Below are positions 27,527 to 55,178 of a DNA stretch of 64,000 nucleotides, piece after piece (the stretch's first letter is position 1; each line of letters begins with the position of its first letter). The notes below the pieces were generated by a model, which was not told the DNA's origin, made no database searches, and saw only the letters and a list, made by a program, of their open reading frames with translations. The DNA lies in contig NZ_LT906662.1 of NCBI RefSeq assembly GCF_900205865.1, positions 930,001 to 994,000 of the forward strand. The letters run 5' to 3'. The DNA comes from Thermoanaerobacterium sp. RBIITD. GTDB lineage: Bacteria > Bacillota > Thermoanaerobacteria > Thermoanaerobacterales > Thermoanaerobacteraceae. A program made the position numbers and the translations under genes.

Positions 27527-28888
27527 TTACCAATTCTTTAGATACTCCTTAGTATTCTCAAACATTTCATCAAATAATTTTTTTGCATCATTATAAGTTA
27601 ATTTTCTAACCATTGGATCATTTAATAAGGCATGTAAAGCTAAATCCTTATCTTTTTTTATTGTAGCTTCTATAATCATTTTCTGGTTTATAATATGTGG
27701 TGCTAATAATATATTTACTGTATCAGGTAATTCCCCGGAAATAACTGGACTAATTCTATCTTTTGTAAAATATGCATTAGTCTCAACGACTATATTTTTT
27801 TCTATTCCCTTAATTTGACCATAATTTGGAAGATTGACATTTGTGATTAAATCTCCTAAACCAACAAGGGCCTTAATTTGTTTAACGCCTTCTTCACCAG
27901 ATGGTGATATCTTAAAATTTTCTTCTCCTTTTGCCATCTTTTGACTTTTCTTTATTAATTCTTCTCTATTTTTTATTCTCCAAGATACTGGAGTAAGATG
28001 AAATTTCCATTTTTTTACTGTTTCTGGATTTTCTAGATAACCTAATTGTGGTACAAATTCAGTTAAATGTCTATCGCCTGCTGCTGCTATAATTCTATAT
28101 TTTTTAAATAAATCAAATTTTACTTTATTAGCCGAACTAGTATAACTACTTTGCCAACTTACTTCCCCTTCATATCCTGTATCAAAATATTTATCTACAA
28201 ATTTTTCATATATAGGAATTAAATCAATATCTTTATAAGTAGCTTTATCTATCCAAGTGAAGTGATTAATTCCAAGCACATTTGTTTTTATATCTTCTCT
28301 TGAACATTCAATATCTTCAATTTCCTTAGCAGCTTTTACTATCAAATTTTGTGTAGAAAACACTTCATGACAACATCCAAATGCTTTAATTTTTGGAAAT
28401 GTATTATAAAGAGTTCTGACACACAAAGCCATTGGATTAGTATAGTTAATTACCCATGCATCTGGACAATATTCCTTTATTTTATTGGCAAATTCAACGA
28501 ATATTGGAATTGTTCTTAATGCTCTAAATAAACCTCCAGGACCAGTTGTATCACCAACCGATTGATATATTCCATATTTTTCAGGAGTATGGACATCTGA
28601 TGCCATTTCATTAAAAGTACCAGGTAATATTGAAATAATAACAAAGTTAGCATCTTTTAATGCTGATTCTATATTATTTACAGCTGTATAAAACCACTGA
28701 CTTTTTAAATTATTACCAATAGTTTCATTTGTTTTGGCTGCTTCATAATCTATATCATATAAATATACAGTCCCTGAAAGAGATTGTTCTAAAGATAGGT
28801 CTGACATCAATCTCCATGCCCATCCTCTTGAGCCTCCTCCAATATAAGCTATTTTTATTTCATCAACTTTATCACCGTCAAATCTCAT
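27527..28888 (-). CDS. lplD: GH4 alpha-galacturonidase-like, copy A (divergent)
   Basis: A 453-residue NAD- and Mn-dependent GH4 enzyme resembling LplD. The N-terminal Rossmann motif is AYIGGGSRGWAWRL, the metal ligands are C172/C173 in FGCCHEVF and H209 in GINHFTWID, and VINYTNPMALCVRTL is the family block. GH4 acts through 3-keto intermediates; LplD-type members remove GalA from the non-reducing end of pectic oligosaccharides. It follows the importer genes after a strong hairpin, the lplA-lplD order. GAGAGGTG precedes the ATG. It is clearly more divergent than the two other copies in the window. Confidence 0.87.
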   Translation of the reverse strand: MRFDGDKVDEIKIAYIGGGSRGWAWRLMSDLSLEQSLSGTVYLYDIDYEAAKTNETIGNNLKSQWFYTAVNNIESALKDANFVIISILPGTFNEMASDVHTPEKYGIYQSVGDTTGPGGLFRALRTIPIFVEFANKIKEYCPDAWVINYTNPMALCVRTLYNTFPKIKAFGCCHEVFSTQNLIVKAAKEIEDIECSREDIKTNVLGINHFTWIDKATYKDIDLIPIYEKFVDKYFDTGYEGEVSWQSSYTSSANKVKFDLFKKYRIIAAAGDRHLTEFVPQLGYLENPETVKKWKFHLTPVSWRIKNREELIKKSQKMAKGEENFKISPSGEEGVKQIKALVGLGDLITNVNLPNYGQIKGIEKNIVVETNAYFTKDRISPVISGELPDTVNILLAPHIINQKMIIEATIKKDKDLALHALLNDPMVRKLTYNDAKKLFDEMFENTKEYLKNW

Positions 28889-38216: not shown

Positions 38217-39603
38217 TCATATATTCCATCCATTAAGATATTCTTTTGTATTCTCGAGCATTTCTTTAAATAATTTTTTCGCATCTTTAAGAGATATTGT
38301 AACTAGCGGATCATTTACAAAAGCACTAAAAGCTAAATTATAATCTTTCTTTAAAGCAGCCTTTAATATAGTTTCTTGATTATAAACCTGCCTCAACACA
38401 AGACTATTTACGTTATTAGGTAATTTCCCTGATAATATAGGCTTTAACTTATTTCCTGAAAATAAAGCATTTGTTTCTACAACCGAACCATATGGTATAC
38501 CCTCAATTTGGCCATAATTTGGTATATTAACATTTGTTACTAAATCACCTAGACCTAATAAAGCTTTAATTTGTTTAACACCTTCTTCCCCAGTTTCCTT
38601 TAACTCAAATTTTTCTTCACCCGATATAAGCTTTTTACTTCTTTCAAGTCTACGTTTCAAATCCTCTTTTCTCCAACTTACAGGAGTTAAGCCAAACATC
38701 CACTCTCCAACAGTCTCTGGATCCTTCAAATACCAATACCCTGGTACAAATTCCGCCAGATGTCTATCCCCTGCTGCAGCAATTATTCCATATCTTAAAA
38801 ATAAATCAAATTTTACTCTTTCTGCAGACGCAAATGAATTATTCATCCAATTATTGTTAACATCACTAATAAATCCACTTTCATAGTATTTATCTACAAA
38901 TTGTTTATACACAGGCATTAAATCTATACCTTTATATCTTGCTTTATCGATCCATGTAAAATGATTTATTCCAAGAACATTTATTTTTATATCTTCCCTC
39001 GAAACGTTATTAATACCTTTTATGTCCTGTAAAACTCGTGATAATAGTTTTTGGGTTCCAAAAACTTCATGGCAACATCCAAATGCTTTAATTTGAGGGA
39101 AAACTTCGTACAATGTCCTGACGCAAAGTGTCATAGGATTAGTATAATTTATAACCCATGCATCCGGGCAATACTCCTTAATTGCATTAGCTATATCAAC
39201 AAACATAGGAATTGTCCTTAAAGCTCTAACTATTCCTCCCGGTCCTACAGTATCACCTACAGATTGATAAATGCCATACTTTTCAGGTGTATGAACATCA
39301 GATTCCATCTCGTCAAACGTTCCAGGCAAAATAGATATTATGACAAAATCAGTACCTTTTAGTGATTCTTCTAACGTCTCGCAAGCTTTATATAACCATT
39401 TACCTTTAACATCCTGACGTTTTGATAATGAATTACCAATTATTTCATTGTCATGGGCTGCATCATAATCAATGTCATATAACTTTACCGTACCAGAAAT
39501 GCTCTCCTCCTTTGCTAAATCGGTCATCAAACTCCATGCCCATTGACCCACCTCCAATATATGCAATATTTAAATCTTTTACTTTAGAATCAATATATTC
39601 CAT
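38217..39603 (-). pseudogene. lplD: GH4 alpha-galacturonidase-like, copy B, with frameshift in NAD-binding loop
   Basis: The gene starts at the ATG 39603 (GGAGGTTGA upstream) with MEYIDSKVKDLNIAYIGGGS, then loses frame: five bases are missing relative to copy C at about 39545, where SRGWAW should follow. From there a second frame runs intact to 38217 (WAWSLMTDLAKEESISGTVK, FGCCHEVFG, GINHFTWID). Apart from the deletion it is very similar to copy C at 53759. The lost residues are part of the Rossmann glycine loop, so even an internal start would give a protein lacking the dinucleotide site. A sequencing error is the alternative. Confidence 0.78.
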
Positions 39604-39649: not shown

Positions 39650-40720
39650 TTATTCAACCTTAATTGCACTAGTCTGTGCATCTAATGCTAGCTCTATAGC
39701 TTTAAATATGTGCTCTTGCGTCATGGCATTTTCCGTCCTGTTTAAGCAGTCCAGTATTAATTCACCAAAGAAAGGAAATCCCACTTTCCCCTTTACATCC
39801 ATATGATATTCGCCATCTTTATTTGCTAAGTACACGTGGTCTGTCGTATTTTCTCTAGCAACATCGATGTACTTTCTAAGCTCTATATATCCATCTGTTC
39901 CTAATATAAATAACCTTCCATCGCCCCATGTGCCAAGCCCGTCTGGAGTGAACCAATCTAACCTGAAATAGCCTGTTGCACCATTATCGCCAACTAGTGT
40001 CACATCGCCAAAGTCCTCAAAAGTAGGGTACTGTTTATGATTGTAATTTGCTACTTTTGCTGATTGGACCTTTGCATCTTTTGCACCTGTGAAAAACAAA
40101 AATTGCTCTATCTGATGGCTTCCTATGTCGCACAGTATTCCTCCAAATTTGTCTTTTTCGTAAAACCAATCTGGCCTTCCTTTTCCTTCTCTATGCGGTC
40201 CCATGCCAATGACTTGTATTACTCGTCCTATTGCTCCTTTTTCTACCAATTGTCCTGCATAGACAGATGCTTCATTGTGAAGTCTTTCACCATAGTAGAC
40301 AGCATATTTTCTCTTTGTCTTTTTCACTTTGTCTTTAGCTTGCTCCAGTTGTTCTCTTGTTGTCATAGGCGGCTTGTCTGCAAAGTAGTCTTTGCCAGCA
40401 TCCATAGCTTTTAAGCCTATAGCGCATCTTTCTGATGGTATTGCAGCACTTGCTACCAATTTAACTGAGTTATCCATCAGAATTTCATCTTCTTCTCTGG
40501 CCTTTTTGGCAGTAGGAAATGCTTTTATGAATCTTTCAACTTTCTCTGGGTCTTTGTCATATACCCATTTTACTTCAGCACCTGCTTCTATTAGTCCTTT
40601 TGTCATTCCATATATGTGCCCATGATCTAGTCCAATTGCTGCAAATTCAAAATCTCCTTCACTGCAGACTTTTTGAGCCCTGCTTTTTGGCATATAGTAC
40701 ATACCGTTTTCTCTGCTCAT
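39650..40720 (-). CDS. Gfo/Idh/MocA family oxidoreductase 1
   Basis: A 356-residue protein of the Gfo/Idh/MocA family. The N-terminal Rossmann part is FAAIGLDHGHIYGMTKGLIE, an unusual glycine pattern with His residues. The catalytic Lys lies in YFADKPPMTT (normally EKP) and the second catalytic block is ILCDIGSHQIEQFLFFTG. Such enzymes oxidise or reduce sugar or sugar-acid hydroxyls with NAD(P). It is in the run between the zinc dehydrogenase and GH4 copy B. GAAGGAA precedes the ATG. Substrate unknown; GlyGly-less nucleotide motif deserves notice. Confidence 0.85.
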   Translation of the reverse strand: MSRENGMYYMPKSRAQKVCSEGDFEFAAIGLDHGHIYGMTKGLIEAGAEVKWVYDKDPEKVERFIKAFPTAKKAREEDEILMDNSVKLVASAAIPSERCAIGLKAMDAGKDYFADKPPMTTREQLEQAKDKVKKTKRKYAVYYGERLHNEASVYAGQLVEKGAIGRVIQVIGMGPHREGKGRPDWFYEKDKFGGILCDIGSHQIEQFLFFTGAKDAKVQSAKVANYNHKQYPTFEDFGDVTLVGDNGATGYFRLDWFTPDGLGTWGDGRLFILGTDGYIELRKYIDVARENTTDHVYLANKDGEYHMDVKGKVGFPFFGELILDCLNRTENAMTQEHIFKAIELALDAQTSAIKVE

Positions 40721-40796: not shown

Positions 40797-42008
40797 TCAT
40801 TTTTTAAATAAATCAAATTTCTCATAATTTTTCATACTAACCTTTTCCGTCTTTCTCCCCCAATTAACATTCATTTCTGAAAATAGTTTTTTGTTTTCGC
40901 TTGCATATTTAATTATCTCTCTTATATTCTTGATATAAGTAAATTTTTTCCCATTTTCTATGTTAACTTCGATAAACTCACTAGGAATATCAAAAATTTT
41001 TTTAGATGACTCAAAAGCCCCATTAGATGCAAGTACAAAATTTCTCGTAATTTCAACTGGGCAATATAATTCTTTACCTTCAAATAAATGTTCTATCATA
41101 TTTTCATATATCTTAACAAATAAATCTTCTTTACCACCATCATATACTTCTTCATTCCCATCAAAATATTTTATAAGCAATTTGTTATCATAGTTCCAAT
41201 ATACCTTTGCTTCTTCAGCATCAATAATTATATATGGCGTCTCTTCTTGCATATTACATAGTGTCGAATAATAATATATTTCTATACCTTTTGTAGTTAC
41301 TATCTTAACACAAGCTGTATCCTCACCTTCAATTCTGTGTCCATGATACAGCTCTGAAATTACCTCTTTGGGTTCTCCACCTCCTTTTTCTGAGGACTCA
41401 GCTATAATTAATTCATTATTCAATAGATGAGCTAACGGATTATTAATTGACCCATCTAATACATAATTATTATTAACAACTAGCTTACCGGCCCAATTAT
41501 TTCTTTGGTAATAACTATCATCTCTTTTCCAACAGCCAACGCCTATAATTGCTCTAATCTTTCCTAACTTTCCTGATTTAATATATTCGATAAGTTTTCT
41601 AAAAGCTTTACCAGAAGTATTTTGAAAATCAACTGCGCAAATCTTATTGTAATTTCTTTTTGCTTCAATTATTGCATCAATATCTTGAATTGTAACAGCA
41701 GGTGGTTTTTCTAACAACACATTAAATCCTTGTTTTATTGCGTCTATTGCCATTTGAGCATGAAAATGAATAGGTGTAGAAATAACTACAAAATCCAAAT
41801 CTTTCATTTCATTTAACATTTGCCTATAATCTTTATAATATTTAACTCCATTTAATGATAATTTATTTATTATATCTTTATTTTTCTCATAATTTACTTC
41901 AGCAATAGCTTTTAAATTCACCTTTTTCCCTTCTAATAAGCTTATTGATCTTAAATGAATACTACCAAAGCCACTAATTCCTATTAAACCTATTCCTGCT
42001 AAATTCAA
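40797..42008 (-). CDS. Gfo/Idh/MocA family oxidoreductase 2
   Basis: A 403-residue NAD(P)-dependent oxidoreductase. The nucleotide motif GIGLIGISGFGSIHLRSI is canonical, followed by DFVVISTPIHFHAQMAIDAI and the catalytic LLEKPPAVT. It belongs to the same superfamily as its neighbour but to a different branch. GAGAGG is placed eight bases before a TTG at 42008; the ATG at 42017 abuts that site and is less likely. Part of the rhamnose-linked operon, 25 bp after the zinc dehydrogenase. Substrate not known. Confidence 0.85.
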   Translation of the reverse strand: MNLAGIGLIGISGFGSIHLRSISLLEGKKVNLKAIAEVNYEKNKDIINKLSLNGVKYYKDYRQMLNEMKDLDFVVISTPIHFHAQMAIDAIKQGFNVLLEKPPAVTIQDIDAIIEAKRNYNKICAVDFQNTSGKAFRKLIEYIKSGKLGKIRAIIGVGCWKRDDSYYQRNNWAGKLVVNNNYVLDGSINNPLAHLLNNELIIAESSEKGGGEPKEVISELYHGHRIEGEDTACVKIVTTKGIEIYYYSTLCNMQEETPYIIIDAEEAKVYWNYDNKLLIKYFDGNEEVYDGGKEDLFVKIYENMIEHLFEGKELYCPVEITRNFVLASNGAFESSKKIFDIPSEFIEVNIENGKKFTYIKNIREIIKYASENKKLFSEMNVNWGRKTEKVSMKNYEKFDLFKK

Positions 42009-42033
42009 AATGCTCATCCTCTCACTATTGATT

Positions 42034-43122
42034 TTAAGGTATCAATACAGACTTTACTGTACTTCTATTTGCCATATCCATCAAAGCTTGTGTAGCTTCA
42101 GATAATTTATATTTATTTGTTATCATTTTTTTAAACAATTCCTTATTATTTAATACTAAATTAGCTGCCATATAAAGATGTTTTGTATCACTTACCCAAA
42201 TACCTTGATATCTTAAATTTTTTCTTGTTATATCATAATAACAATCAATTGTCACTGTGCCATTTGGATCGCCAAAACCAAGCGACAAATAATTTCCTCC
42301 ATTTCTAACTAACTTAATTCCTTCGCTAACTGCAGATGGATGACCTACCGCTTCAATTGCTAAATCTACACCCTTTCCTTTTGTTATATCCATAATAATT
42401 TCTTTTCTTTGCTCTAATGTAGTTAACTTTCTATCAAGCACAATAGTTGCACCAAATTCCTTACACATATTTAATCTTTCTTTCGTGCCACCAATTACAA
42501 CAATATTTTGTGCTCCATATTCTTTAGCAAACAATATCGCATAAAGTCCAATAGGTCCTGGACCTTGGATTAAAACAGTATCACCAATATCAGGTGAAAT
42601 AGTGTCAAATGCATGTGCACATGTTGCTCCAGAACATGATGCTGACACTAATACTTCTGGTTCAATATTACTTTCTATCTTTAACACTTTGGTATTTTGG
42701 TCAAGATATATATATTCAGAATAGCATCCTCTCAAATAAGGTGGTTGATTGCATCCCACACTTATTCCATATGTCCATCTGTCTTGGCACAAATATGGTT
42801 CCTTTTTAACTGTACAATAATAACATTTACCACAAGTTACGCCTCTATCCCAAATTATTAAATCCCCTTCTTTTAGCTCATAACCATAAATATCTTCCCA
42901 ATTTCCTGAAATCGCTTCAACCCGACCAACACCTTCATGACCAACAATCATTGGTAATTTCGCTCTTGGATCATTACCTTTGAATATATGTGCATCAGAT
43001 CCACATACTCCAGCAGCTTCTATCTTAACTAAAAGCTCACCATCTTTTGGTAATTTCAATTCAAATTCCCTCATAACAAGAGGTTTATTGAATTCTTCGA
43101 GAACCATTGCACGTGCTTTCAT
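42034..43122 (-). CDS. Zinc-dependent medium-chain dehydrogenase
   Basis: A 362-residue MDR-family dehydrogenase. The catalytic zinc site starts at AAGVCGSDAHIF with GHEGVGRVEA; the structural zinc site is GVTCGKCYYCTVKKEPYLC; the Rossmann motif is LIQGPGPIGLYAILFAKEYG. It resembles threonine/sorbitol-type dehydrogenases. In this operon it could reduce lactaldehyde formed from rhamnose, or oxidise a polyol or sugar. Its ATG directly abuts the TAG of the flavoprotein gene; GGAGGCG lies in the end of that gene. Confidence 0.88.
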   Translation of the reverse strand: MKARAMVLEEFNKPLVMREFELKLPKDGELLVKIEAAGVCGSDAHIFKGNDPRAKLPMIVGHEGVGRVEAISGNWEDIYGYELKEGDLIIWDRGVTCGKCYYCTVKKEPYLCQDRWTYGISVGCNQPPYLRGCYSEYIYLDQNTKVLKIESNIEPEVLVSASCSGATCAHAFDTISPDIGDTVLIQGPGPIGLYAILFAKEYGAQNIVVIGGTKERLNMCKEFGATIVLDRKLTTLEQRKEIIMDITKGKGVDLAIEAVGHPSAVSEGIKLVRNGGNYLSLGFGDPNGTVTIDCYYDITRKNLRYQGIWVSDTKHLYMAANLVLNNKELFKKMITNKYKLSEATQALMDMANRSTVKSVLIP

Positions 43123-44922
43123 CTATATCGCCTCCAAATCTTGCGGCTTTATAGGTTCAATCCTATTTACTTCAATTTCGTTTTTTTTGTTATCAAGTTT
43201 GCAAACGTGATAAAAATTATATTTCTCATTTCTTGGCTTCGGCAATAAATCATCATATCTTTCAAACATAAGATGTGGTCCACGGCTTTCCTTACGTAAT
43301 ATACAACTTTTTACAATAGATTCCGAAGTCAGAAGCATATTTTTAAACTCTAAAAGACTTGTATATTCAATTGGTTTTATTTGTTTTGCTTTTAATTCAT
43401 TTATAATGTCTAATGCTATTTGTAAACCATCAGGATACCTTATTACGCTTGCATATAAATCCATTATATTTCTAAGCTTTTCTTTTGCTTTTTCTAATTT
43501 TATTCCACTTTGGGAAATAAAATCTTTATAACTTTCAAATATATAACGTGCTTTAAGAAGTCCAACATCCTCGTCTAAATCTACACTTAAAGAAAATTCA
43601 AAAGCATTTTCCCCTGCAATTTTGCCAAAAACCTGAGTATCCAAAAGTGAATTCCCACCTGGTCTATTTGCTCCATGTTGCCCCCCTGCACATTCACCAC
43701 ATGCATATAAACCTGCAACATTTGTTTGAGCTTTCTGTCTTATTTTTACTCCACCTTGAAAATGTTGAATAGATGGTTTAATTTCCAATAGATCCTTTTT
43801 TAGATCTATTCCCCTTTCTGAAAACCACTTTATCGTTTGCGGATTTATTTCTTGTAATCTATCAATTGGAGTTAATCTACAACTCGTCAATTCCTTTATC
43901 TCATCATAATATTTCTTTTTTAAATCATCTCTTAAATATTCAAATTTAAATCCACTAGGGTTCTGTTTAAAATCCAGAAAAACTCTATTTCCCCTCATTA
44001 TTTCCCTAAAAACAGCAACATCTATATTCCAAGTTTTGTGTTCAGCACTAATTGGCCATGTTGAACCTTTTTCAAATATATCATAAAACGTTATACCATA
44101 GTTAATTAAAAATTCTTCTCCATTTTCATTAATAAACCTTGGTATACATCTCATTATACTTCCAGAACACGCAATCTTTGTTTTTGGTGATGCTAAACCA
44201 ATTTGAATGAATTCCATATTAACAAGCTCTGCACCAGCCCTTAATGCCATTGCATATCCATCACCGGTCATCCTTATTGGATAAACATTATTGCCATAAA
44301 TCTCCCCTGCTCCACCTGTTGCTAATATTACAGATTTTGCAAGAATAATTATTTCATGTTCATCTATAAACCCAACTGCACCAAAAACTTTATTATTTGC
44401 TACAATTAAGTCACTTACCATTACATTTTCTAAAACTTCAATTTCTTTAATTTTACTAATTCTTTTCATAAGAGCCTGTTCTATTTGAACTGCAGTATCA
44501 GGCCCAGTAAAACAAGCCCGAGCATATATCGAACCATCAGTTACAAACTGAGACGGTATATCATTTTCTTTGACAAATGGTACTCCTAATTTTTCTAAAT
44601 AATAATAAGCTTCTGATGAATTTTTTGCTAAAACTTCAGCCAAGTCATAGTCGGAAACAAATCCGCCAATCTCATAAATGTCTCTAGCGTGGTATTTCCA
44701 ATTATCATTTAATCGTGGACTAGTTGTAGGAAGTGTTACATGAAAAGCCATTCTATCGGAATAGGCTAATGCGGTTGTACCACAAGCTCCAAGTCTTCCT
44801 TTAACTGCAATAATTATTTTTATATTTTTCTTTGAATTATATGCTCTTTCATAAGCTGCAATTGCCGCTCTAAGTCCTGCACCACCACCACCTATTACCA
44901 AAACGTCAGCTTTATATATCAC
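43123..44922 (-). CDS. Fumarate reductase/APS reductase-like FAD flavoprotein
   Basis: A 599-residue flavoprotein of the fumarate reductase/succinate dehydrogenase/aspartate oxidase group. The FAD-binding motif is DVLVIGGGGAGLRAAIAAYE; IMRCIPRFINENGEEFL lies where the active-site arginine region is; SIQHFQGGVKI and GLYACGECAGGQHGANRPGG close the FAD domain. The GTG at 44922 is chosen because AGGAG lies nine bases upstream. It starts one base after the stop of the PreA-like gene, so the two are tightly coupled and may form a complex. No membrane subunit or separate FrdB is present. Its substrate is unknown. Confidence 0.82.
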   Translation of the reverse strand: MIYKADVLVIGGGGAGLRAAIAAYERAYNSKKNIKIIIAVKGRLGACGTTALAYSDRMAFHVTLPTTSPRLNDNWKYHARDIYEIGGFVSDYDLAEVLAKNSSEAYYYLEKLGVPFVKENDIPSQFVTDGSIYARACFTGPDTAVQIEQALMKRISKIKEIEVLENVMVSDLIVANNKVFGAVGFIDEHEIIILAKSVILATGGAGEIYGNNVYPIRMTGDGYAMALRAGAELVNMEFIQIGLASPKTKIACSGSIMRCIPRFINENGEEFLINYGITFYDIFEKGSTWPISAEHKTWNIDVAVFREIMRGNRVFLDFKQNPSGFKFEYLRDDLKKKYYDEIKELTSCRLTPIDRLQEINPQTIKWFSERGIDLKKDLLEIKPSIQHFQGGVKIRQKAQTNVAGLYACGECAGGQHGANRPGGNSLLDTQVFGKIAGENAFEFSLSVDLDEDVGLLKARYIFESYKDFISQSGIKLEKAKEKLRNIMDLYASVIRYPDGLQIALDIINELKAKQIKPIEYTSLLEFKNMLLTSESIVKSCILRKESRGPHLMFERYDDLLPKPRNEKYNFYHVCKLDNKKNEIEVNRIEPIKPQDLEAI

Positions 44923-44923
44923 T

Positions 44924-46069
44924 TTAATTTCTCTCCTTTTCAACCATTGAAATTGCATTAACAGGACAAACCTCAATGCATAATCCACACCCATCACAAT
45001 TTTCTTTTATCATAAATTTTTCTTCATCGCTTTTAATTGCATCATATATACAAACATTAAAACACTTTCCACAACCAATACATTTGTCCTTATTTATACT
45101 TGCAGCTCCCCAATGTCTTCTATCAACCGATTCCATATCAAGAATTTTATCACAAACTTTGCCTTTAAAATCACTAATGTTGCTATATCCTTTCCTATCT
45201 AAATATTGTTCTAAATATTTATTTATTTGTTTTATTACATCATAACCATTTAAAAATACTGTTGTAACAATTTGAACAGCAGATGCTCCAGATAATATGT
45301 ATTTAATAGCATCTTCACCATTCATTACGCCACCACTAGCACTTATACTACACTTTAATTTAGGCGATACAGCACTTATCCATCTTAACCCATACATAAT
45401 GGCCCACGGCCCACCATGTCCTGCATATCCACCATGTAAAATTGGTATCTCTTTTTCTATATCTATATCAAGACCTGTAAATCTATTAAACATAACAAGC
45501 CCATCAGCTCCTGCCTGTTCTAGCCTCAATGCATCGGATCCTGGATTTGCAGATTGCGGTGTCATTTTGGGTATTACAGGTATCTTAACGTTATGTTTAA
45601 CAATATGCGTTGTATGCACCATTTCTTCAATAATGTTCATACCAGACATAATGTGTACTCCATGAGGGCATGAAAGATTAAGCTCTATTGCATCAGCTCC
45701 CGCTTTCTCCATTAATTTGCTATATTCAATCCATGCATCATCCGTATAACAATTAATACTAGCTATAACAGGTATACTCAATTTTTGTTTTACATTAAAA
45801 ATAAATTCTGCATATTCTTGTGGATTCAATTCACTTGCCTGCTCATATGTGTAAAACGTAAATGTATTAGTATGTTTTACTATCTTAAATCGAGGTGTCG
45901 GTGATTTTCTAGATATTTCCTTTTGAAATAAACTTTTAGTTACTACAGCACCTGCTCCGCATTCTTCCGCTCTTTGCAACAATTCAATAGAACCAGTTAT
46001 ACCAGCAGAACCTATAATTATAGGCGTTTTAAGCTTTAAATTAGCATAAGTCGTAGATAAATTTAACAT
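44924..46069 (-). CDS. PreA-like dihydroorotate dehydrogenase-fold protein with two 4Fe-4S clusters
   Basis: A 381-residue protein. Residues about 1-300 are a DHOD/PreA-type FMN TIM barrel with AIELNLSCPHGVHIMSG (the Cys is the general acid in dihydropyrimidine dehydrogenase) and SISASGGVMNGEDAIKYILS. The C terminus is a ferredoxin domain with CIGCGKCFNVC and CDGCGLCIEVC, each binding a 4Fe-4S cluster. It could pass electrons to the next-door flavoprotein. In PreT-PreA the partner is PreT; here it is a fumarate-reductase-like protein, an unusual pairing. AGGGGGAAA precedes the ATG. It follows rhaB. Confidence 0.82.
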   Translation of the reverse strand: MLNLSTTYANLKLKTPIIIGSAGITGSIELLQRAEECGAGAVVTKSLFQKEISRKSPTPRFKIVKHTNTFTFYTYEQASELNPQEYAEFIFNVKQKLSIPVIASINCYTDDAWIEYSKLMEKAGADAIELNLSCPHGVHIMSGMNIIEEMVHTTHIVKHNVKIPVIPKMTPQSANPGSDALRLEQAGADGLVMFNRFTGLDIDIEKEIPILHGGYAGHGGPWAIMYGLRWISAVSPKLKCSISASGGVMNGEDAIKYILSGASAVQIVTTVFLNGYDVIKQINKYLEQYLDRKGYSNISDFKGKVCDKILDMESVDRRHWGAASINKDKCIGCGKCFNVCIYDAIKSDEEKFMIKENCDGCGLCIEVCPVNAISMVEKERN

Positions 46070-46122: not shown

Positions 46123-47553
46123 CTATTCAATTGGTGTAGAATACCTCTCTTGTTCTATAGAATTCTTTATTATCTTTCTGCCCTCTTTTAAATCTTTTAT
46201 AAATCCCAATCCTATAAGTTGAACTATGCTATTACCATAAACAGATGCTTCTATCGGTCCAGTTACGACTGTCTTACCTGTAATGTCCGCAGTTAATTTG
46301 CATAAGAACTTATCCTGAATTCCTCCGCCGACCATTTGAATAGTATCTATATTTTTACCAGTTATCTCTTCTAAATGATTTACGCAATTTTTATATTGCT
46401 CTACTATGCCATTGTATGCAGCTCTTGCAATATCACCCATGTCTTGTGGTAAACCCTGCCCTGTCTGAATGCAATATTGTTTTATAGCTTCAACCATGTT
46501 ATCAGGTGCCATAAATAATCTATCATCAGGATTTATTATAAATTCTTTGTGCTTAGATTTAGATGCTATCTGGCTGATTTCTGAAAATCCTATTTTTATA
46601 CCATTTGAATTCCAACTTTGTTTTAATTGCTGAATTATCCATAATCCATTAATATTTTTCAATAATCTTATATATCCTTCCACACCGCCTTCATTTGTAA
46701 AATTATATTTTTTTGTATATTCATTTATTAAAGGATGATCGCTTTCAATACCTAATAGCGACCATGTTCCGCAACTCAAATAAGCACTTGTACTGCTTTC
46801 AAGCGGTGTACCTGCAACTGCTGAAGCCGTATCATGACTTCCAACAGAAATCACTGGAACATTAGATAGTCCCGTTTCTTCCCGAATTTCTTTTGTTAAA
46901 TAACCTATTATATTCCCAGGCATTAATATTTTTTGAAAAATGCCTTCCGGTAAATTTAACTTTTTTATAAGATCGATCGCCCAATCTTTTTTTTCAGCAT
47001 CTAACATCTGAGAAGTTGAAGCTACAGTATATTCGTTATATTTCTCATGTGTAAGATAAAAATTAAATAAATCTGGTATAAATAATAATGTCCTCGCATT
47101 ATTCAATAATTCTGGACGTCTTGTTAAATCACAATACAATTGAAATATTGTATTAAATTCCATAAACTGTATACCAGTAACATTATAAATCTCTTCTAAT
47201 GGCAATATCTTTTCAACATCTTTTATTATTCCATTTGTTCTTTGATCTCTGTAATGAACCGGGTTTGATATCAATTGATCATTTTTATCAAGCAACCCAT
47301 AATCAACGCCCCATGTGTCTATGCCAATACTTGATATTTTAATTTTTCTTTTGGATATTAATTTTAATCCGTTTTTTAATTCATGAAAAAGTCTTAAAAA
47401 ATCCCAATAAAGTGTTCGTCCCATTCTAACTGGTTCATTTTGGAATCGATAAACTTCTTCAAGTGTAATTTTTTCGCCATCAAATTTCGACAACATAAGG
47501 CGTCCATTTGAAGCACCAAAATCAAAAGATAAATTATATACCTCATCTTTCAT
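46123..47553 (-). CDS. rhaB: L-rhamnulokinase
   Basis: A 476-residue FGGY-family kinase. It has the N-terminal ATPase motif FDFGASNGRLML, the rhamnulokinase-type IGIDTWGVDYGLLD, NPVHYRDQRT, and ACGTWSLLG-like SCGTWSLLGIESDHP with MVGGGIQDKFLCKLTAD. It phosphorylates L-rhamnulose to rhamnulose-1-phosphate with ATP in the cytosol. It follows rhaA after 171 bp and precedes the redox cassette. GAGGATGG lies upstream of the ATG with a rather long spacer. Confidence 0.94.
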   Translation of the reverse strand: MKDEVYNLSFDFGASNGRLMLSKFDGEKITLEEVYRFQNEPVRMGRTLYWDFLRLFHELKNGLKLISKRKIKISSIGIDTWGVDYGLLDKNDQLISNPVHYRDQRTNGIIKDVEKILPLEEIYNVTGIQFMEFNTIFQLYCDLTRRPELLNNARTLLFIPDLFNFYLTHEKYNEYTVASTSQMLDAEKKDWAIDLIKKLNLPEGIFQKILMPGNIIGYLTKEIREETGLSNVPVISVGSHDTASAVAGTPLESSTSAYLSCGTWSLLGIESDHPLINEYTKKYNFTNEGGVEGYIRLLKNINGLWIIQQLKQSWNSNGIKIGFSEISQIASKSKHKEFIINPDDRLFMAPDNMVEAIKQYCIQTGQGLPQDMGDIARAAYNGIVEQYKNCVNHLEEITGKNIDTIQMVGGGIQDKFLCKLTADITGKTVVTGPIEASVYGNSIVQLIGLGFIKDLKEGRKIIKNSIEQERYSTPIE

Positions 47554-53758: not shown

Positions 53759-55150
53759 TTATAAATTCCATCCATTAAGATATTCTTTTGTATTCTCAAG
53801 CATACTATTAAATAGCTCCTTGGCATCATTTAGAGATATTGTAACAAGGGGATCATTTACAAAAGCACCAAAAGCCATATCATAGTCTTTCTTCAAAGCA
53901 GCTTTTAGTGTTGCCTCTTGATTATAAACCTGCCTCAGGACAAGGCTATTAACAGCATCAGGTAATCTTCCAGCTAAAACAGGTTTCAATCTATTACTCG
54001 AAAATAAAGCATTTGTTTCTACAACAGCACCATACGGTATTCCTTCAATCTGACCATAATTTGGCATATTGACATTTGTCACTAAATCTTCAAGACCCAG
54101 CAATGCTTTTATTTGTTTGACGCCTTCTTCACCTGTATCTTTTAGCTCAAATTTTTCTTCGCCTGATACGAGCTTTTTACTCCTTTCAAGCCTATGTTTT
54201 AGATCTTCTATTCTCCAGCTTACAGGTGTTAAACCAAACATCCACTCTTTAACAGTCTCAGGGTCTTTGAGATACCAATAACCTGGTACAAACTCTGCAA
54301 GGTGCCTATCACCTGCTGCCGCAATTATACCATATCTTAAGAACAGGTCAAATTTGACTCTTTCAGCAGAAACAAATGAATTATTCATCCAATTGTCATT
54401 TTCATTTCCTTGAAAACCACTTTCATAGTATTTATCCACGAATTCTTTGTATATAGGCATTAAATCTATACCCTTATATCTGGCATTATCAATCCATGTA
54501 AAATGATTTATTCCAAGAACATTTATTTTTATATCTTTCCTTGGAACCTCATCAATACCTTTTATATCCATTAAAGCTTTTGATAAAAGTTTTTGTGTTC
54601 CAAATACTTCATGGCAGCATCCAAATGCTTTTATCTGTGGAAATACTTCATATAATGTCCTTACGCAAAGTGTCATTGGATTAGTATAATTTATTACCCA
54701 TGCATTCGGACAATACTCCTTAATTGCCTTAGCTATATCTACAAACATAGGTATAGTCCTCAAAGCTCTTACGATTCCACCAGGTCCTACAGTATCACCA
54801 ACGGATTGGTAAATCCCATATTTTTCAGGCATGTGTACATCTGATTCCATTTCTTTGAATGTTCCAGGTAGAATAGATATTATTACAAAATCAGCATCTG
54901 ACAGTGCTTCTTTAAGAGATTCATATGCTTTATACTTCCATTTCCCTTTAACATCTTCACGTCCTGATAATGAATTGCCTATTAATTCATTATCATGTGC
55001 TGCTTTATAATCTATGTCATATAGTTTTACTGTGCCTGAAATACTTCCTTCCTGCGCTAAATCGCTCATCAGATTCCATGCCCAGCCTCTTGATCCACCT
55101 CCTATATATGCTATATTTAAATCCTTTACTTTATCATCAACATATCTCAT
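53759..55150 (-). CDS. lplD: GH4 alpha-galacturonidase-like, copy C (intact)
   Basis: A 463-residue intact GH4 enzyme. It has AYIGGGSRGWAWNLMSDLAQ (NAD loop), FGCCHEVFG and GINHFTWID (Mn ligands), and AAAGDRHLAEFVPGYWYL. It is nearly the same as the broken copy B and fairly distant from copy A. It should release GalA from the non-reducing end of pectic oligosaccharides, the substrate of UxaC encoded next. The ATG at 55150 is used (MRYVDDKVKDL). It is transcribed divergently from the AraC gene, from a conserved 86-bp control region. Confidence 0.93.
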   Translation of the reverse strand: MRYVDDKVKDLNIAYIGGGSRGWAWNLMSDLAQEGSISGTVKLYDIDYKAAHDNELIGNSLSGREDVKGKWKYKAYESLKEALSDADFVIISILPGTFKEMESDVHMPEKYGIYQSVGDTVGPGGIVRALRTIPMFVDIAKAIKEYCPNAWVINYTNPMTLCVRTLYEVFPQIKAFGCCHEVFGTQKLLSKALMDIKGIDEVPRKDIKINVLGINHFTWIDNARYKGIDLMPIYKEFVDKYYESGFQGNENDNWMNNSFVSAERVKFDLFLRYGIIAAAGDRHLAEFVPGYWYLKDPETVKEWMFGLTPVSWRIEDLKHRLERSKKLVSGEEKFELKDTGEEGVKQIKALLGLEDLVTNVNMPNYGQIEGIPYGAVVETNALFSSNRLKPVLAGRLPDAVNSLVLRQVYNQEATLKAALKKDYDMAFGAFVNDPLVTISLNDAKELFNSMLENTKEYLNGWNL

Positions 55151-55178
55151 GCAAATCAACTCCTAGATTATTATTTAT

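Follow-up and report, generated by a model that had tools for sequence, protein, structure and literature searches.

Gene Organization of the Locus

A stretch of 64,000 nucleotides (nt) from Thermoanaerobacterium sp. RBIITD, referred to here as the window, contains a compact redox cassette located directly behind a group of rhamnose genes. It consists of genes for a PreA-like flavin mononucleotide (FMN) barrel protein, a flavin adenine dinucleotide (FAD) flavoprotein resembling the fumarate reductase subunit FrdA (FLAVO) and a zinc-dependent dehydrogenase (ZnDH), followed by a Gfo/Idh/MocA dehydrogenase (GfoA). The cassette can tentatively be regarded as an example of a catabolic redox module that is widespread and apparently undescribed, and that is probably a uronate/glucuronate module rather than a rhamnose module. 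Open reading frames (ORFs) were called mechanically, so that short or split genes may have escaped, and many neighboring genes outside the Pfam/NCBIfam scans were named by their similarity to a scanned or hand-named member. The genes of the block, followed by two flanking genes, are:

44924..46069, minus strand: PreA-like FMN TIM-barrel protein, 381 amino acids (aa), with a DHO_dh match (2.2e-28), a C-terminal 2x[4Fe-4S] dicluster domain and two CxxCxxCxxxC motifs
43123..44922, minus strand: FLAVO, FrdA-like FAD flavoprotein, 599 aa from a GTG start, with FAD_binding_2 (2.9e-43) and Succ_DH_flav_C (5.5e-9) matches
42034..43122, minus strand: ZnDH, zinc-dependent medium-chain dehydrogenase, 362 aa, with ADH_zinc_N and ADH_N domains
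40797..42017, minus strand: GfoA, Gfo/Idh/MocA dehydrogenase of 406 aa, in fourth place in the conserved block
39650..40720, minus strand: GfoB, a second Gfo/Idh protein, next after GfoA in the window and in a second copy of the cassette
46123..47553, minus strand: rhaB-like rhamnulokinase, upstream context outside the module (500.3 bits against a curated cut-off of 527.95)

The order rhaB, PreA-like protein with two 4Fe-4S clusters, FLAVO and ZnDH, described in an earlier note on this DNA, was confirmed in its coordinates, domains and gaps. On the minus strand rhaB is separated by 53 nt from the PreA-like gene, which is followed after 1 nt by FLAVO, after 0 nt by ZnDH and after a further 16 nt by GfoA; the GTG start of FLAVO lies one base past the PreA-like stop and the ATG of ZnDH abuts the FLAVO stop. 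The same note had argued for a joint function from this tight coupling, and the argument is strengthened by the recurrence of the coupling in distant phyla, which is therefore not due to chance. GfoA is a member of the conserved block, and the membership of GfoB is uncertain, as GfoB also occurs beside glycoside hydrolase (GH) family 67 genes in xylan clusters of the same genus without the cassette.

Upstream of the cassette the order is class II aldolase, rhamnose mutarotase-like gene, rhaA and rhaB. Of these products only RhaA passes its curated cut-off (674.5 vs 572 bits), the mutarotase scoring 47.5 vs 99.6 bits and the class II aldolase likewise falling under its cut-off. Neither the rhaB-PreA gap nor the two junctions within the cassette contain a terminator-like site, making co-transcription of the cassette with the rha genes plausible. 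A promoter-like site (11/12) is present at 50568-50540, ahead of the aldolase gene; the region holds 50 such sites against a mean of 64.9 in shuffled sequences, i.e., not above the shuffles.

Distribution and Conserved Partners

A scan of genome contigs for FLAVO yielded 44 loci distributed among Bacillota, deltaproteobacteria, Aerophobetes, Latescibacterota, Planctomycetota, Chloroflexi, Thermotogota and others. Among 398 genomes (266 genera) drawn from the phylum, FLAVO was present in 24, belonging to 12 genera; six of the 24 represent one other genus of the class (g4), that is, six of the seven g4 genomes in the draw. Within the Thermotogota, ZnDH (E 1e-60 or better) was detected in 13 of 81 genomes and FLAVO at 8 of these 13 loci, seven of which display the gene order TctC, TctA, Gfo, PreA, FLAVO, ZnDH (in L131 no PreA ORF was called; the prefix L denotes a locus).

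Partners were defined as genes on the same strand within 8 kb of FLAVO and were counted in 60 loci found through FLAVO, after dropping L035 (no FLAVO ORF called) and the repeats L080, L082 and L087 (= L037, L052 and L051); L007 and the Thermotogota loci, the latter found through ZnDH, are outside this set but inside the 69-locus count used below. ZnDH was present in 42 of the 60 loci, an old yellow enzyme (OYE)-like barrel in 29, a PreA-like barrel in 15, both barrels in none and Gfo in 15; a recognized barrel was missing from 16 loci and ZnDH from 18, many of which are cut by contig ends. When the count was restricted to the 34 loci flanked by 5 kb or more on each side, the corresponding numbers were 28 (ZnDH), 21 (OYE), 8 (PreA), 0 (both barrels) and 10 (Gfo), with some barrel in 29, ZnDH together with a barrel in 24 and no ZnDH in 6. 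The core is formed by FLAVO, ZnDH and one FMN barrel, the latter being a PreA-like protein with ferredoxin domain, a PreA-PreT fusion or an OYE-like protein. It is extended by Gfo/Idh in most PreA-type loci (10 of the 15 among the FLAVO-found loci) and by a small cupin in some OYE-type loci. A KdgF-like role of this cupin was not retained; its matches are Pfam Cupin_2 and, weakly, DMSP_lyase, with no NCBIfam family at E 1e-30.

Two observations weigh against the proposed module: 5 of the 34 well-flanked FLAVO loci have no recognized FMN barrel, and 5 of the 13 Thermotogota loci contain ZnDH without FLAVO, one of them at a contig end. No description of such a module was found among the open-access literature matches listed, most subscription papers lying outside that coverage.

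The Flavoprotein Family

FLAVO shares its fold, FAD domain and C-terminal domain with the flavoproteins of the complex II family (Escherichia coli FrdA, 1kf6; TfrA; SdhA; L-aspartate oxidase; the alpha subunit of adenosine 5'-phosphosulfate (APS) reductase), as well as the GANR motif with its carboxylate-binding arginine. An AlphaFold2 (AF2) model, with a mean predicted local distance difference test (pLDDT) score of 88, aligned to 1kf6 with template modeling (TM) scores of 0.78/0.81; residues 417-422, which form the GANR loop, have pLDDT values below 50, and the structure predictions of FLAVO and GfoA were built on shallow alignments (18 and 8 sequences, respectively). FLAVO differs from the family in that all its scores are under the curated cut-offs, so that its identification as a known fumarate reductase/succinate dehydrogenase (TfrA, 329.9 vs 718; sdhA_frdA, 222.1 vs 567.3; fum_red_Fp, 181.1 vs 932.7 bits), L-aspartate oxidase (nadB, 193.1 vs 452.75) or APS reductase alpha subunit (AprA, 145.2 vs 557) was rejected. 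At the positions aligned with H232, T244, E245, H355 and R390 of FrdA, which in role and numbering we take to be the catalytic residues, FLAVO has G, S, G, Q and R, the arginine alone being kept; no position of the FLAVO alignment was assigned to R287, and that of the presumed covalent-FAD histidine is not His. In addition, no FrdB-like gene was recognized among the window ORFs of the block by domain scan, and a CxxCxxC motif scan of ORFs within 6 kb around FLAVO retrieved chiefly the PreA-like gene.

A motif alignment comprising 42 rows (41 distinct sequences, with the distant L053 and L054, 35 and 31% identical, left out) revealed QF.TDGS, QHFQGG and HGANRPGG in all rows, RAC.TGP likewise (with A for C in one), SDRMAFH and CSGS in 41 and ESRGPHL in 40. 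Outside the genus, members are mostly 43-54% identical to the window protein. Judged from these alignments, FLAVO forms a single conserved family, shared by many phyla, which has lost most of the fumarate-reductase catalytic residues, and its nearly invariant motifs argue that the members share one reaction and a narrow substrate class. Neither curated models nor sequence comparison provided a close homolog of FLAVO with known function.

The FMN Barrels

The PreA-like protein combines an FMN barrel with a 2x[4Fe-4S] domain, as do PreA, the C-terminal half of dihydropyrimidine dehydrogenase (1gt8, its best solved relative, profile E 1.5e-45) and class 1 dihydroorotate dehydrogenases. Its assignment as PreA was rejected (228.6 bits vs a curated cut-off of 335); it also differs from PreA/1gt8 in the active-site loop, which presumably bears the catalytic cysteine in the pig dihydropyrimidine dehydrogenase and lacks a cysteine in all 12 of the 12 members compared, and in its surroundings, as no preT adjoins the gene in the window. 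The earlier note's view that the two flavoproteins are neither a known PreA nor a known FrdA agrees with these results, and the setting beside pyrimidine or aspartate metabolism genes that the note had named as evidence against its reading found no support, no such neighbors having been recognized, without a systematic search for them. Pfam shows a fusion of the PreA part with a PreT-like part in L032, and the proteins of L034 and L042 are similar in length and match. L012 (974-2120) encodes its PreA-like protein in two overlapping frames (276 and 132 aa), the result of a frameshift or a sequencing error.

In other loci the slot of the PreA-like protein is occupied by an Oxidored_FMN barrel of the old yellow enzyme type (YqjM, 1z41), which is absent from the window cassette. 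From their mutual exclusion we infer that PreA-like and OYE-like barrels are functionally equivalent. Depending on the family, such barrels would receive electrons from ferredoxin, from NAD(P)H via PreT or directly from NAD(P)H. Because one slot is filled by architectures with different electron donors, the comparison suggests that the barrel may be a reductase in its own right and not the iron-sulfur subunit of FLAVO.

The Dehydrogenases

ZnDH aligns over its full length with 1vj0, its best solved relative (E 7.3e-115), and was rejected as L-threonine 3-dehydrogenase (tdh, 166.6 vs 458.35 bits) or another curated zinc dehydrogenase (HpnZ, 174.9 vs 328.1). Thermotogota relatives of ZnDH, about 52-55% identical, were also found in loci without a detected FLAVO (L123, L124, L125, L126 and L135, the last starting at a contig end).

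The predicted model of GfoA (pLDDT 89) retrieved with Foldseek the 12 chains of the P2B11 glucuronide-3-dehydrogenase (8tdi) at ranks 1-12 (E 1.6e-24 to 3e-23; next hit, 1.3e-22), and 8tdi was also first in a single-sequence search (6.8e-16). GfoA resembles this enzyme, WlbA, DgpA and levoglucosan dehydrogenase in fold and N-terminal sequence, and it is proposed to be a putative sugar C3 dehydrogenase. Against this assignment, GfoA is only about 21% identical to 8tdi; in the profile search 8tdi ranked fourth, after 3q2i, 3ec7 and 3q2k, of which 3q2i and 3q2k are WlbA with UDP-N-acetylglucosaminuronic acid (UDP-GlcNAcA); and for the Gfo of Thermotogota the best match is DgpA, 8tdi being near the bottom of the list. 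GfoA also scores under the glycoside-3-dehydrogenase cut-offs (BT_2158_fam, 72.5 vs 750).

Second Copy and History in the Genus

The same genome carries a second cassette at 2371 kb of contig C1, with a FLAVO that is 93% identical to that of the window. It is preceded by GH10, a GH67 alpha-glucuronidase, two Gfo proteins, GH52 and a transposase, and followed by GfoA, GfoB, GH52, GH39 and an acetylxylan esterase, with UxuA at about 15 kb. Ratios of nonsynonymous to synonymous substitution (dN/dS) between the copies are low (PreA 0.115, FLAVO 0.159, ZnDH 0.069, GfoA 0.126, GfoB 0.046) and therefore both copies look selected.

Directly before the second copy lies a C-terminal remnant of rhaB (148 aa, 82% identical to the window rhaB). 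Truncated rhaB genes (C-terminal 144-148 aa) precede the xylan-cluster cassette in three genomes (L007, 12703-13149, and the starts of L011 and L012), in L007 and L012 behind a transposase gene. These remnants suggest joint movement of the cassette with part of a rha operon. GfoB is truncated in L011 and L012.

Within Thermoanaerobacterium FLAVO was detected in three of nine genomes; G001, G008 and G004, genomes of the same genus without FLAVO, retain the remainder of the xylan cluster (UxuA, GH67, Gfo, GfoB and GH52; L103-L105). A Gfo/GfoB pair directly follows GH67 in five genomes of the genus (L103, L104, L105, L106 and L007), three of them without the cassette. In the window, three GH4 glycosidase genes (27527-28888, 38217-39566 and 53759-55159) are located in one pectin/rhamnogalacturonan region, the last two being closely similar by eye.

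Genomic Neighborhoods and the Substrate Class

Based on the genes surrounding the cassette it can be proposed, still tentatively, that the module acts on a glucuronate-type sugar acid beyond the reach of the ordinary pathway and delivers it to the uronate/2-keto-3-deoxygluconate (KDG) pathway, a substrate and a chemistry that we infer. Nine markers were considered: UxuA, UxuB/UxaB, UxaA, UxaC, KDG kinase, 2-keto-3-deoxy-6-phosphogluconate (KDPG) aldolase, GH67, beta-glucuronidase and KduI/IolB. At least one occurred in 29 of 69 loci and, among loci of at least 15 kb, in 24 of 44, compared to none of 20 control windows taken at arbitrary places in 16 FLAVO-bearing genomes, a smaller number of genomes than supplied the FLAVO loci (Fisher 1e-5). 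In L028 a glucuronate isomerase (510 vs a cut-off of 387 bits) is accompanied by KDG-kinase-like and KDPG-aldolase proteins; in L092 there is a beta-glucuronidase (855 vs 544 bits) with homologs, fragmented in two cases, at five of six g4 loci, alongside rhamnogalacturonan-lyase and GH95 proteins. L086 contains UxaA- and UxaB-like genes, UxuA lies within the fetched stretch of four of the eight Thermotogota FLAVO loci, and tripartite carboxylate transporters (TctA/TctC, DctM) are found at the loci scanned. In the window itself a glucuronate isomerase (667.5 vs 387 bits), a tagaturonate reductase (725 vs 359) and a protein of the altronate/galactarate-dehydratase family are encoded.

Several points weigh against this interpretation. 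The markers were picked after the neighborhoods had been seen, some queries were drawn from these very loci and the loci are related, so that the Fisher value overstates the case. No marker was present in 20 of the 44 long loci, and without the g4, Thermotogota and own loci markers were present in 14 of 30 and absent from 16. The distribution of GH67, in 8 of the 24 FLAVO genomes and 2 of the 12 FLAVO-bearing genera (11 of 266 genera overall), points in neither direction. Genes of the coenzyme A (CoA) type in L037 and L031, UbiD in L052 and AroE-like genes in some loci fit other acids. As a separate observation, URO-D proteins related to MtaA/CmuA methyltransferases lie beside ZnDH/FLAVO in L083, L084, L085, L086 and L088, a possible hint of methyl-group handling; the sole protein scanned, that of L086, is below its curated cut-offs, and methyl-group transfer stays a hint.

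An alternative route for unsubstituted hexuronates (galacturonate/tagaturonate or glucuronate) to KDG, in replacement of the classical steps, is unlikely, even if some of the data would fit it. KDG kinase and KDPG aldolase are present in 16 and 12 of the 69 loci, respectively, and neither UxuA nor UxaA was found in the fetched stretch of those 16, other dehydratase families not being searched. Moreover, a reconstruction of Caldicellulosiruptor bescii sugar pathways leaves several clusters unassigned and reports that Caldicellulosiruptor lacks the steps that should follow UxaC in the use of saturated galacturonate, a gap that two uncharacterized clusters may fill (PMC8579813). These clusters are under a DeoR-family regulator (PMC8579813); no such regulator was recognized in L089-L092, L094 and L095, without a systematic search. 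In the window genome, plain galacturonate and glucuronate already have a route, given the isomerase, the reductase and the dehydratase-family protein of the window together with a genomic UxuA, which makes a bypass needless, and in four Thermotogota loci the module has UxuA as a neighbor.

Cleavage of glucuronosides by 3-keto chemistry (oxidation, elimination and reduction), as in levoglucosan/glycoside-3-dehydrogenase pathways, with the flavoenzymes handling a leftover enone, is distinctly improbable. The fold match of GfoA to the glucuronide-3-dehydrogenase and its relatives, DgpA and levoglucosan dehydrogenase included, would favor this chemistry, for which the levoglucosan pathway provides a precedent (PMC7676230); yet Gfo is absent from 24 of the 34 well-flanked FLAVO loci, the window genome and five of the six g4 loci already encode hydrolytic glucuronidases, and no 3-keto lyase family was recognized in the block.

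Almost the same, and if anything slightly lower, likelihood applies to a different polyhydroxy acid, for example a cyclitol or a quinate/shikimate-type compound, for which uronate neighbors would be just one setting. AroE-like genes (shikimate dehydrogenase family; by Pfam for L043) lie near FLAVO in L026, L037, L043, L052 and L081, and CoA-transferase, enoyl-CoA hydratase, MaoC, UbiD and transporters of the LIV and TRAP types occur, the enzymes in single loci. Nevertheless, the two copies in the window genome each belong to a plant-glycan cluster that includes glucuronidase or pectin genes, beta-glucuronidase is beside the module at five of six g4 loci and the conservation of the active site speaks for a single substrate class.

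As to rhamnose, the earlier note had suggested a redox step on a rhamnose- or pectin-derived compound or electron disposal in deoxysugar fermentation. The link to sugars of plant polysaccharides (pectin, xylan) was supported, whereas the link specific to rhamnose was not. In the 398-genome draw, 8 of the 24 FLAVO genomes carry rhaA, the same eight genomes and two genera as for GH67, and the window genome alone has it next to FLAVO; in G002 the two genes are on different contigs, and in the six others they are more than 1 Mb apart. No intact rha gene was detected on the same strand within 8 kb in any of the 60 FLAVO-found loci (two truncated rhaB were) and no rha gene in the 34 well-flanked ones, so that a rhamnose-specific role was rejected on linkage. 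A role in rhamnose catabolism or deoxysugar fermentation, for which the 53-nt gap behind rhaB without terminator-like site and the rhaB remnants ahead of the xylan-cluster copies might speak, is very improbable, as at the cut used rhaA is missing from 16 of the 24 FLAVO genomes and in seven of the eight with both genes it is distant or on another contig. The association with rhamnose looks accidental, and the window arrangement has the look of one landing site for a cassette also present in xylan, rhamnogalacturonan and uronate loci.

Proposed Chemistry and Significance

Within the proposal of a glucuronate-type substrate, the most economical candidate, albeit a doubtful one, is 4-O-methyl-D-glucuronate from xylan and arabinogalactan. 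This acid is common to glucuronoxylan and the side chains of arabinogalactan/pectin, and the ordinary route should not take it. In the putative scheme, which gives each enzyme a part, Gfo would oxidize C3 to a ketone and FLAVO, with the conserved carboxylate-binding arginine, would take hydrogen across C4-C5, beside the carboxylate; water would then displace the C4 substituent from the resulting vinylogous ester, ferredoxin or NAD(P)H would supply the FMN barrel with electrons for the reduction of C4=C5, and ZnDH would reduce the C3 ketone. The net result would be a redox-neutral loss of the C4 substituent, with methyl-glucuronate and water giving glucuronate and methanol. Alternatively, FLAVO may act as a reductase rather than as a C-C dehydrogenase next to the carboxylate. 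The loci without Gfo, 24 of the 34 well-flanked ones, are ill-suited to a compulsory C3 oxidation by this protein and weigh against the scheme.

The levoglucosan pathway (LgdA-B1-B2-C) proceeds by oxidation, elimination, hydration and reduction; it resembles the proposed module in the C3 oxidation with later reduction, the redox-neutral balance and the operon encoding, and differs in the genes involved and in having no flavoenzymes (PMC7676230).

The module could conceivably represent, with the same doubt as its candidate substrate, an anaerobic, corrinoid-free and redox-neutral system for the removal of the 4-O-methyl ether (or another C4 substituent), the methyl ether as methanol, in which electrons would be borrowed and given back by way of two NAD dehydrogenases and two flavoenzymes. 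If true, this would account for the ability of anaerobes to use the methylated uronic acid in wood xylan and fill a gap in hemicellulose fermentation. The presence of two different FMN barrels in one slot is a clue to an ene-reduction step, and the substrate class has been narrowed enough for direct assay. Given the wide spread of the module and the nearly invariant active site of FLAVO, the same unassigned reaction is probably performed across many habitats and phyla of mostly anaerobic bacteria.

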